Below the pieces are notes generated by a model that worked only from the letters and a program-made list of their open reading frames with translations, was not told where the DNA came from and made no database searches. This document shows positions 28,403-31,958 of a stretch of DNA of 64,000 nt, piece after piece. Source of the DNA: Candidatus Bathyarchaeota archaeon. Its GTDB lineage: Archaea > Thermoproteota > Bathyarchaeia > Bathyarchaeales > Bathycorpusculaceae. A program made the position numbers and the translations under genes. Location of the stretch: positions 62,001 to 126,000 of the forward strand of contig JAOULW010000003.1 of the NCBI GenBank assembly GCA_029881805.1. The letters are read 5' to 3'. The stretch's first letter is position 1; every line of letters begins with the position of its first letter.

Positions 28403-29566
28403 TTAAAGAGCCTTAAAGGCTTCAAACCATCTGTTATATAACGACAACATGTCAAGGGAAACGCTTGGTTTTCTCTCTTCCAGTGTTTGTCGAAAGTCGC
28501 CCATTCTTAGTGATCTGGGCTTGGCCAGCTTGTTTGTTGCTTGTCCAGATTCGAAGAATTCACCTATGAGCTTTAGATGTGCTGCCTGACAAACATCCCT
28601 TATGTCGCTTCCTGAAAATCCTTCTGATAATCTAGCTAATTCGTGCAAGTCGACATCTGGTGCAAGCCGCAGATTGCTTGTATATAGTTTAGACATCATC
28701 AAGCGCGTGTGGTGATCGGGAAGTGGAACTAAAATTCTCTTCTGAAATCTTCTAATAAAAGCCCAGTCCAAATCCCATGGTTTGTTTGTTGCTCCTATAA
28801 CGTAAACATGAATATTCTTGCCTTTATCCACAATACCATCCATTTCTTTCAAGAATTGATTGCGAACACGGACTTCTCCTCCAACCTCATTCGAATGTTT
28901 TCCCATGAGGGAGTCCAGCTCATCAATAAAAACTATTGACGGTTTTCCGTCATTTGCCGATTTTCTAGCTGAGCCGAAAAGTTTTGCAACATTCTGCTCA
29001 GCTTCACCAAGCCATTTAGACATTACTGAGGCTGCATCAATCGAAACAAAAGTTGCATCTATTTCTGTTGCGACTGCAGCCGCCAACAGTGTTTTTCCAC
29101 ACCCAGGCGGTCCGAACAAAAGAATACCTCTTGGCCATCCTAAAGGAAACAAGTCGGGTCTCTGAATAGGATAGACTATAGCTTCCTTTACTGCTCTTTT
29201 AGCCAGTTCAAGACCAACAACTTCCTCCCACTTTACACTTGGTTTTTCAGTAACTATCAGTTCCTCATAACTCGACTTTCCACCTTCAGTAGTCTTTGTA
29301 ACATCAGGGTTTCTGGTGTCACCCTGCATTTCGGCAGGAATCACTGCTCCTTGTAATGCTTTTATCCTTTCTTGATAGGCGATCGCTCTTTGTATGTAGA
29401 CCTTGTTTAGGCTGTATTCCGGATATAATTGGACAAGTTGAAGCAAAGTTTCAATAGCTTTCTGATACATCGTTATCGCCATGCCTTTTGCTCCCTGCTT
29501 GTCGAGTCGAACAGCTTCTAATGCATAGTTTGTTGCAGCCTTCTCAAGCTCTTGCGAAGCGCTCAT
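28403..29566 (-). CDS. cdvC: CdvC, Vps4-like AAA ATPase
   Basis: CdvC disassembles ESCRT-III polymers during archaeal cell division. The 387-residue protein has an N-terminal MIT domain (about residues 1-75), a linker, and one AAA module with Walker A GPPGCGKT (152-159), Walker B IVFIDELDSL (211-220) and ATNKPWDLDWAFIRRFQKRI as sensor region with arginine fingers. The C-terminal Vps4 helix is present. It lies 16 bases after the cdvB gene. The MIT domain should bind the proline-rich MIM motifs of the CdvB proteins upstream. Confidence 0.95.
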   Translation of the reverse strand: MSASQELEKAATNYALEAVRLDKQGAKGMAITMYQKAIETLLQLVQLYPEYSLNKVYIQRAIAYQERIKALQGAVIPAEMQGDTRNPDVTKTTEGGKSSYEELIVTEKPSVKWEEVVGLELAKRAVKEAIVYPIQRPDLFPLGWPRGILLFGPPGCGKTLLAAAVATEIDATFVSIDAASVMSKWLGEAEQNVAKLFGSARKSANDGKPSIVFIDELDSLMGKHSNEVGGEVRVRNQFLKEMDGIVDKGKNIHVYVIGATNKPWDLDWAFIRRFQKRILVPLPDHHTRLMMSKLYTSNLRLAPDVDLHELARLSEGFSGSDIRDVCQAAHLKLIGEFFESGQATNKLAKPRSLRMGDFRQTLEERKPSVSLDMLSLYNRWFEAFKAL

Positions 29567-29582: not shown

Positions 29583-30479
29583 TCAACTCAATTTCGATTC
29601 AATTTTTATTTTTCCCTGTGCGCCCAGATTTCTAAGGGTTCTCTCAACTTCGTCATACGAAGTTTTCAAATCTATAGAGCAACGTGCTATGTCGATTTCT
29701 CCGTTACTCTTTTTGACATAATCAAGAAGCACATCTTCTAATGATGGTTTTTCAACCTTTAGAGAAATTTCTTGAATTTCGGATTTTTTATAAGAAAAGA
29801 GGGTTTGAGAAGAATCACCATCAGATCCCTCGATTGTCTCGCGACCAATTGCTTGTGAACAGTTGGCTGCTAAGGCAACCATTTCTTTCAGTGTAGTCTG
29901 CTCAGCTTCGGGAGTTTTTAGAGTAACAGGCGGTTCAGGAAGTTTTTCGGCAACTTTTTGTTCAAGGAAACTGGAAACTTCTTTTAGTATTTCTTCTCCT
30001 CCAGGCGTCTTTCTGTTTACTGGTATTATTGACTCATCTGCGGTTATCCTAGTTGAGTAGAGTGTCTCGCTTATTTCCTCGTTAACCTTGCTTAGCTCAG
30101 AGGAAACATCTGGCAGAAATTCGAACAATTCTTGCGAAACACCTTGAAGGAGTTTTAAGGCAGGTTTCAAATCGAAAACTATGTCGCTTAATTCTTTTAT
30201 CGTTTCAAGCCTAAGAATTACGCGTTCTATGGCTAATTCTACATGGTAAAGAAATTTTGTTATTTTTCGAACCTCTGCGATTTCGTTTGCACAGATTGCG
30301 GCTCTTTCTTTATTCTTATTCTTCAAGGCGCCTATGCATGTTTGAAAGAGAATTCTGTCTCTCTCTTTGAGTCTGAAGCCGGCCTGACCTATTCTGTTGC
30401 GCTGAATTTTTAGTCTTTGTATCGATTTGACAACTGTTTCACGAAGTGGTGGAGGGCTTCGATGAAGAAAGCCTTTGAT
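29583..30479 (-). CDS. cdvB: CdvB, ESCRT-III-like protein with C-terminal winged helix; apparent AUC start
   Basis: Translation in frame from codon ATC at 30479 gives about 298 residues. The N-terminus reads KKIKGFLHRSPPPLRE, then LKERDRILFQTCI and KERAAICANEIAEVRK, the core of CdvB/Snf7. The middle has a proline motif (KLPEPPVTLKTPE), a likely MIM for CdvC. The last 55 residues form a winged helix that in Sulfolobus CdvB binds CdvA. The frame has no ATG, GTG or TTG between the in-frame stop at 30498-30500 and TTG 30326, and starting there would delete the first ESCRT-III helix. GGAGG lies 7-8 bases before ATC 30479. Confidence 0.8.
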   Translation of the reverse strand: MKGFLHRSPPPLRETVVKSIQRLKIQRNRIGQAGFRLKERDRILFQTCIGALKNKNKERAAICANEIAEVRKITKFLYHVELAIERVILRLETIKELSDIVFDLKPALKLLQGVSQELFEFLPDVSSELSKVNEEISETLYSTRITADESIIPVNRKTPGGEEILKEVSSFLEQKVAEKLPEPPVTLKTPEAEQTTLKEMVALAANCSQAIGRETIEGSDGDSSQTLFSYKKSEIQEISLKVEKPSLEDVLLDYVKKSNGEIDIARCSIDLKTSYDEVERTLRNLGAQGKIKIESKLS

Positions 30480-30518
30480 TTTTTTTCCCTCCGCCCGTTA
30501 CTCCATTTTTGTTACAGG

Positions 30519-31274
30519 TTATATCCCAGATTTTCCAACTTCCTTCACATACACAACTACTGGTGGTTCCGGAAGTTCAGGACTTGGGGAAGCCGAAGCT
30601 GGCTCTTTTGAGGAATCTTCTGCCACTTCATTTTTCTCTTGTTCCGTCGTCTCTTGTTCTGTCGTATTGCGTTCTTCACCCAACAGAATGTTTGAAAGTT
30701 TGCTTTTGGTAAGTTCTAAATCGCCTCTTTCCGTGTTAACTCGTTTTAGATTCTCTTGTATTATTGTGAAGGCTTCTTCATATGATTGGCTGTCGACCTT
30801 TCCTATTTCGTGTTCGAGTTCCAGATGCACTAATGCATAGTTCAGCTCTCTTGTCTCCTTGGAACATCGGACAATTTCCTTATCTAACGCTTCCAAAAGA
30901 GTCTGCGCCTCGGTTTTCAATTGAGTCAATACTCCATCAAAATTGTTGTGTAGCTCTTCGTAAAGCTCCTGCGATATCTTTCTCTTTTCGACTAAGTCTT
31001 TAAGGGCTTGATCTTTGCGCCAAATTACTGGTATTTGGTCGCAGAAAGCGTTTGCCCCTGATTTTATTGTATGGATGAGTGTTACGTCGGCACCATCGAA
31101 TTTCAGGCGTTCTGTGGAGAGCTTTAGGAATTTGCCGTCGCCTTGTTCGATAAAAGCAGCATCAAATTTTCCATTGGGATTTACAGCAAAAGATGCTATC
31201 TTACCTATTGTGCGTCCGTATTCGTCTTTGATTGGTTTTCCAATTGAAAGAAAAAAGTTGGGGTTTTGTGACAT
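30519..31274 (-). CDS. cdvA: CdvA-like cell division protein
   Basis: CdvA is the membrane- and DNA-associated scaffold that recruits CdvB at mid-cell. The 251-residue protein starts with a PRC-barrel-like domain (IGKPIKDEYGRTIGKIASFAVNPNGK), continues with a coiled coil from about residue 90 to 200, and ends after an acidic Ser/Pro linker with PPVVVYVKEVGKSGI. That short tail corresponds in position to the Sulfolobus peptide that binds the CdvB winged helix. It lies between the two ESCRT-III genes. Start is ATG 31274. Confidence 0.88.
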   Translation of the reverse strand: MSQNPNFFLSIGKPIKDEYGRTIGKIASFAVNPNGKFDAAFIEQGDGKFLKLSTERLKFDGADVTLIHTIKSGANAFCDQIPVIWRKDQALKDLVEKRKISQELYEELHNNFDGVLTQLKTEAQTLLEALDKEIVRCSKETRELNYALVHLELEHEIGKVDSQSYEEAFTIIQENLKRVNTERGDLELTKSKLSNILLGEERNTTEQETTEQEKNEVAEDSSKEPASASPSPELPEPPVVVYVKEVGKSGI

Positions 31275-31289
31275 TTTTCCTCCCTACCT

Positions 31290-31958
31290 CTATGAAGTCT
31301 CAGTTGGTGCTTTTTCTCCTACTGAGGTTGGGACTCCTGAAATTCCTGGTGGTAGTTCTGGGAACTTTTCTTTGATCTTTTGTTCTGCAACTGTTGCTGC
31401 TTCGGTGAGAATTTTCTGTGCGTCTTCATTTACTGCGTCAAAGTTTAGCGTCATTCCCGAGCCTTGTCCAGCTTCGATCATTATACCGCTTAATAGATTG
31501 CCTATTTCTCCTAGCTCATTTTCTGCTTCAGGGAAAACGCTTACAAGTCCAGCTCTCACTGTTCTTAGTACGCCAACAGCTGGTCCTAAGGTGGATACTA
31601 CATCCCCAAGTTCGGATACAGTCCGTAATCGTAATACAATTTGCTCAAGTGCGAGTCTTGCGTTAATAATTAGTCTTTCCATCTTGCGTATTTCTGCTAG
31701 TTCATTGGCGAAAACATTTGCCCGCGCCGTATCATGCTTGGTGTACGCGTCAACTATTCTTGCGAATATTGTTTTGTCTCTTTGGCTGAATCTTTCCGTT
31801 GCTTGATCTAATTTCTGAACCTGCAATTCTATGCGTCTAACGGCGAAGTCTAGTCGTGGTCTCAGTGGACCTGGTGGTCTAACAGCTTCCTTTATGCGTT
31901 CCGTGAATGGCTGCTCTTCTCTTCTAGTTTCCCATTTTTTCGCGAACCTTTCTGACAA
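31290..31958 (-). CDS. Second ESCRT-III/CdvB-type protein, without winged helix
   Basis: This paralogue shares PFTERIKEAVRPPGPLRPRL, KLDQATERFSQRDKTIF and ANVFANELAEIRKMERL with cdvB and has the same helical core. It stops after a proline-rich tail (KFPELPPGISGVP), a likely MIM motif for CdvC, and lacks the C-terminal winged helix. It therefore resembles the CdvB1/B2 class. I chose TTG 31958 (MSERFAKK) because GGAGG lies about 6 bases ahead; an ATG at 31988 would add ten residues across that ribosome-binding site. It is the first gene of the cdv operon. Confidence 0.88.
   Translation of the reverse strand: MSERFAKKWETRREEQPFTERIKEAVRPPGPLRPRLDFAVRRIELQVQKLDQATERFSQRDKTIFARIVDAYTKHDTARANVFANELAEIRKMERLIINARLALEQIVLRLRTVSELGDVVSTLGPAVGVLRTVRAGLVSVFPEAENELGEIGNLLSGIMIEAGQGSGMTLNFDAVNEDAQKILTEAATVAEQKIKEKFPELPPGISGVPTSVGEKAPTETS

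Follow-up and report, generated by a model that had tools for sequence, protein, structure and literature searches.

An AUC codon as the probable start of cdvB in a Candidatus Bathyarchaeota archaeon, with a candidate hairpin that holds its Shine-Dalgarno sequence

The cdvB gene on the minus strand of a 64,000-nucleotide stretch of Candidatus Bathyarchaeota DNA (the whole of which is called the window, and to which all coordinates refer) raises the question of where its translation begins. Homology to CdvB starts at an ATC codon (30479-30477), while the earliest ATG, GTG or TTG downstream is TTG 30326, 51 codons past it. After the in-frame TAA at 30500-30498 the frame reads CGG GCG GAG GGA AAA AAA ATC AAA GGC and continues to a terminal stop that ends at 29583; counted from the ATC, the coding sequence (29583..30479) comprises 298 aa plus the stop. 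A Shine-Dalgarno (SD) sequence, GGAGGG (30487..30492), lies ahead of the ATC, and its GGAGG at 30492-30488 is separated from the codon by 8 nt (30487-30480); across the whole 2.2-Mb genome there are just 4 matches to GGAGGGA-N6-ATH. A sequence-only reading had proposed that this ATC is the start codon, and its coordinates for the GGAGG, ATC, TAA and TTG were re-read and are right. It had also drawn attention to a two-codon frame, ATG GAG TAA, just upstream; the frame is indeed present (30506-30498, minus strand), but it is not conserved, being absent from the inspected loci of relatives, and is judged to be incidental.

The gene belongs to an ESCRT-III division operon on the minus strand that holds a CdvB1/B2-like paralogue (31290..31958), cdvA (30519..31274), cdvB and vps4/cdvC (28403..29566), and shows the cdvA-cdvB-cdvC order. 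The product of cdvA matches Pfam CdvA (PF18822) over the cut-off, and its stop lies 39 nt upstream of the ATC; the AAA ATPase gene vps4/cdvC served as a control gene with a canonical start. CdvB has the ESCRT-III core and a C-terminal winged helix, its profile matching the solved CdvB/CdvB2 entries 9s9j and 9s97 and the ESCRT-III winged-helix entry 2xvc. The Pfam Snf7 score of the cdvB product is below the cut-off (25.3 against 27.3 bits), the cut-off of NCBIfam NF041008 is missed (114.7 against 370 bits), and the CdvB1/B2 NCBIfam model gave 123.6 bits against a cut-off of 350; the NCBIfam CdvB models look to have been built on closer relatives of Sulfolobus. The paralogue in the window has its probable start at TTG 31958-31956 behind GGAGGT (31970-31965), not at ATG 31988.

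For comparison, CdvB was found by protein searches in 58 of 60 related genomes, and matches, with paralogues among them, were found in 219 of the 256 genomes of the class. It was also found in 80 kept loci of named genomes, and the cdvB alignment holds 96 distinct frames, identical frames having been merged. In the column of the window's ATC these Bathyarchaeia frames carry ATC (39), ATA (14), ATT (13), ATG (19) or another codon (11), so that AUC, AUA or AUU (AUH) stands there in 66 of the 96. By eye, the 11 others resolve into ATG one codon on in L021, L052, L080 and L111, GTG one codon back in L046 and L047, ATC one codon back in L041, TTG in L103 and L132 and GTT in L098, with L043 ambiguous. 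The SD spacing is held as well: a GGAGG is present in 58 AUH frames, and in 56 of them it stands 7-9 nt before AUH. Between the upstream stop and AUH there is no in-frame canonical start in 60 of the 66 AUH frames, and 55 also have no canonical codon through five codons past AUH. The proposed AUC start of cdvB is thus strongly supported, and judged on its sequence context the position evidently combines a non-NTG codon, an SD and no alternative start.

A CdvB tree was built without the first columns, and ten of its rows were reassigned by eye (L021, L052, L080, L111 and L104 to ATG, L041 to ATC, L046 and L047 to GTG, with L043 and L131 uncertain). Families f1, f2, f4, f6 and f7 all contain AUH frames, which argues for an AUH start conserved over evolutionary time. 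The tree requires 11 or more switches between AUH and NTG (12 if ATG and GTG/TTG are counted apart). Among ATC, ATA, ATT and ATG 26 changes are counted, compared with 18-41 in 29 four-fold columns, and within AUH 17, compared with 13-25 in 11 conserved Ile columns. The first two bases of the cdvB start are thus held while the third drifts at a silent-like rate, opposite to what NTG starts usually show. With these 26 silent-like changes and an ATG share of 24 out of 89, there is no sign of selection against AUG at the cdvB start, and the weakness of the start codon as a selected trait is not supported, since the third base is silent-like and ATG is not rare. The sequence-only reading had held that relatives with an ATG at this place and a shorter A-run would speak against an AUC start; a minority of relatives are of this kind, but on the tree they lie interspersed with AUH relatives and ATG arose repeatedly, and therefore ATG is a change of state and not a correction. 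The AUC/AUA/AUU start is best described, from this distribution, as a trait that cdvB has long kept in the window's order, with several losses to AUG. In families f3, f5, f8 and f9 of the same order cdvB has GTG or ATG, and in the other sampled classes of the phylum (L318-L325, L327-L329) ATG or TTG.

In other orders of the same class, cdvB was also seen without a canonical start near the SD in f12 (L300:2788 ATT and L331 ATC, in each of which a TAA separates the SD from the start), f14 (L333 ATC) and f15 (L336 ATT), and in f10 L334 has CTG where L299 has GTG.

The pattern is absent from the neighbouring genes. In the same loci the start is canonical in 90 of 90 vps4 genes and 78 of 80 cdvA genes, the two cdvA exceptions reading GGAGGTGAGAAT ACG and GGAGGTGAAACT ACG where relatives have GTG. 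For the ESCRT-III paralogue, stricter matching was applied, as first-pass calls of no start were mostly matches to cdvB itself; it then showed a TTG start in 67 of 77 and an SD in 72 of 77. Beyond the operon, about 0.79 Mb of the window's genome (G000) was scanned against nearly all of a relative (G006), giving 503 gene pairs. For 485 of them an aligned canonical start falls within the first half of the alignment, and 77 of the 485 carry a strong SD in both genomes. A conserved AUH with a strong SD was matched three times among the 503 pairs, cdvB being the one convincing case. The second match is an 85-codon frame without a third-position excess (12/16/16) and is probably not a protein, and the third falls on codon 2 of a short gene whose start is CTG in G000 and ATG in G006. 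A looser list of 52 late-start pairs, 7 of which were inspected, consists mostly of trimmed alignments and shadow frames.

Other near-cognate starts were noticed along the way. At L123:1729, and at the same place in L127, the ACG of cdvA directly follows GGAGGTGA, and the aligned codon is GTG in L313-L315. In the window's genome, candidate CTG starts after an SD stand at 4 of 287 mapped starts where G006 has ATG, GTG or TTG: L221:13889 (+), one on the minus strand of L208, L219:3622 (+) and L216:5327 (+), which by eye are RtcA-like, nitrilase-like, an S26e-like ribosomal protein and a 111-codon frame. There are two further, less clear cases, and the reverse comparison gave 0 of 277.

A second feature of the cdvB start lies in its surroundings, for which the consensus is GUAGCGGGCGGAGGGA...AUH...CCCUCCACCnCUACG. 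The SD can pair with CCCUCCACC some 30-odd nt downstream, which places the start codon in the loop. In the window the proposed 5' arm is GGGCGGAGGG (30487..30496, minus strand), which holds the SD, and the 3' arm is CCCTCCACC (30448..30456, minus strand), within Ser-Pro-Pro-Pro codons; across relatives the downstream arm corresponds to Ser/Asn-Pro-Pro-Pro codons. Codon choice is narrow here, as CCT serves as the first Pro codon in 64 of 69 frames versus 35% of Pro codons elsewhere in cdvB, and the codon before it ends in C in 52 of 65, where C makes up 22% at four-fold sites; the last base of the third Pro is free. In a synonymous test on 94 of the 96 frames the upstream arm was kept and the downstream codons were redrawn synonymously. 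The real SD pairing was stronger than the recoded mean in 83 of 94 genes, with a mean z of -1.04 (rank-test p values overstate this, because related sequences are not independent), and the same test gave mean z values of -0.16 for cdvA, +0.40 for vps4 and +0.43 for the paralogue. By this test the SD is paired beyond coding need, a tendency that the control genes do not share and that is only weakly present in the window (z -0.58 for the duplex, +0.35 for the fold). The pairing of the SD with codons that are fixed beyond what the protein needs appears to be new here.

Evidence for the folded structure as such is mixed. The window hairpin does not stand out from shuffles (z -0.38). The start-region set covered 90 of the 96 frames (6 were dropped), and alignment A2 holds 63 of these 90, the 27 left out being mostly ATG, GTG or TTG and f4 rows. 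RNAalifold on the MAFFT alignment returned a weak consensus of just 5 pairs at -1.45 kcal/mol; in the named structure 72.8% of cells are paired, versus 49-59% when it is slid. The covariation score of the stem was reached by 9 of 500 shuffles, and two-sided changes in stem pairs were not above shuffles (8 versus 7.2). In f4 (L040, L041) an AUC start is found without the hairpin arm, and in Rfam no family matched above chance, the single match being at chance level. On balance the hairpin is probable for the clade, though unproven, and weak in the window's genome, with the codon constraint in its favour and, against it, a weak window fold, a weak RNAalifold consensus, shuffle-level two-sided changes and the missing arm in f4. 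A trade-off between AUG and a stronger hairpin had been considered, as AUG genes have a mean z of -1.94 (n 23) versus -0.77 (n 65); it was dropped as shared ancestry, given 7 phylogenetically independent pairs with a median p of 1.

The reading that accounts for these features, and that is held to be probably correct, is that cdvB is translated from its AUC under the direction of the SD, a long-lived AUC/AUA/AUU state, with an SD-pairing arm downstream; the weak start and the arm together would keep CdvB low versus CdvA and Vps4, as a stoichiometry valve. A 30S subunit would be held by the strong SD and would start at AUN with initiator Met-tRNA, and the SD hairpin would lower output further. 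The weak start and the SD lock would then limit CdvB synthesis, with start-codon fidelity set by aIF1 and the opening of the hairpin as the likely control points. What the sequences show is where the start lies, that it is conserved, that the neighbouring genes lack the pattern and that the downstream codons are constrained; initiation itself, the low output, the part played by aIF1 and the regulation are inferred. Such a low, limited supply would suit a protein whose amount controls division in Sulfolobus, and the cdvB start may in this way tune a division gene, as the sequence-only reading had suggested.

The most serious competitor, which is considered unlikely but is far from negligible, is that a strong SD and the position make the third base unimportant, so that AUN drifts nearly neutrally and without regulatory meaning. 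The silent-like rate of change and the frequency of ATG fit such tolerance, as do the CTG starts with an SD in four other genes of the window's genome and the ACG at cdvA in L123 and L127. It does not account for the confinement of AUH to cdvB among the operon genes and the SD-led pairs scanned, nor for the tie of AUH, in most families, to the SD-pairing arm, both of which are in keeping with the stoichiometry valve.

A much less probable reading, given a very small chance, treats AUH as an ordinary Ile codon within a longer CdvB, whose translation would enter from an upstream frame such as cdvA by frameshift, hop or readthrough. The third base of AUH does behave as that of an Ile codon, and for 30 of the 66 AUH frames a canonical codon does occur in one or another of the frames that run open as far as AUH, but in the other 36, including the window, none of the three open frames has an ATG, GTG or TTG. 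Five frames (L010, L078, L087, L088 and L126) have an in-frame stop one codon ahead of AUH (e.g. ggagggc TAA AAT ATC AAA), which leaves AUH as their sole sensible start. The cdvB start codon follows the cdvA stop at 23-46 nt in 93 of 94 (the exception being -7), and the spacing takes every remainder modulo 3; therefore no common readthrough or shift joins the two genes. The retained 7-9 nt spacing of the SD and the ATG at the same place in 19 frames also speak for initiation at this codon.

A sequencing or assembly error in the window, named in the sequence-only reading as the main alternative on account of the eight A in a row that adjoin the ATC, is refuted and deserves almost no weight, because AUC, AUA and AUU recur at this place in dozens of independent, named assemblies of relatives, most of them without the A-run. 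A start at TTG 30326 with the preceding 51 codons untranslated, which is what a table-11 ORF finder returns, is just as improbable, as homology extends to AUH, the first downstream canonical codon of relatives lies anywhere from 1 to 121 codons past AUH, and mismatches between the ATC-to-TTG stretch and 16 relatives fall 168/196/369 on codon positions 1/2/3 (715 codon comparisons), a third-position excess that marks these codons as protein-coding.

The AUC start within its SD-pairing surroundings resembles several known systems in part. In Escherichia coli the AUU start of infC, likewise an AUH-type codon, lowers expression, and infC encodes a factor that discriminates against its own start. 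The comparison with infC made in the sequence-only reading fits as far as the start may work like that one, but infC-type autoregulation is unsupported because CdvB is not an initiation factor, and it was rejected for cdvB; the aIF1 gene is present and itself starts at an in-frame ATG. SD-sequestering mRNA hairpins likewise hold the SD in a stem, with the start codon in the loop; the candidate cdvB hairpin differs in that its downstream arm lies within the coding sequence, it is so far without a trigger and it has no Rfam match above chance. The closest worked-out parallel is sigR of Streptomyces, whose GTC start codon is described as repressed by IF3 (PMC5472188). In both, a single gene within an operon has a non-canonical start that is conserved, and a change to a canonical codon is reported to shift stoichiometry in sigR; sigR belongs to a bacterium and involves IF3 and GTC, while cdvB belongs to an archaeon and has AUH, an SD-pairing arm and aIF1 as the likely fidelity factor. 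Translational coupling to cdvA is not proposed, because termination-reinitiation requires overlaps or very short distances, according to PMC10666635, and cdvA ends a median of 36 nt before the start, in 92 of 94 farther from it than the 26-nt stretch containing the 5' arm. A weaker effect, in which translation of cdvA unfolds the cdvB hairpin, may exist.

In Sulfolobus the amount of CdvB is reported to be a control point of division (PMC12909875), and the likeness to the present case lies in that role; control there is by degradation, while control of synthesis is proposed for cdvB here. The N-terminus of Sulfolobales CdvB carries amphipathic regions studied for membrane binding, according to PMC12818579, and start-calling with ATG, GTG and TTG only trims the N-terminus of CdvB (by 51 codons in the window). 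In the open-access literature no published report of a non-AUG cdvB start was found, subscription papers being largely outside the search.

A division gene that has retained an AUH start throughout most of an order would be a candidate for archaeal non-canonical initiation, and with its natural mRNA one could test what aIF1 does for start-codon fidelity. As a tentative generalization, for which the chances are put somewhat below even, archaea may have gene-specific non-AUG initiation as a form of translational control, exemplified by the AUN of cdvB in the loop of an SD-locking hairpin in most families of an order, and near-cognate AUH, CUG and ACG starts may be admitted wherever a strong SD holds the mRNA. 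If this is true, the start-codon rule in these archaea would differ from the NTG rule that is used to annotate archaeal genomes.
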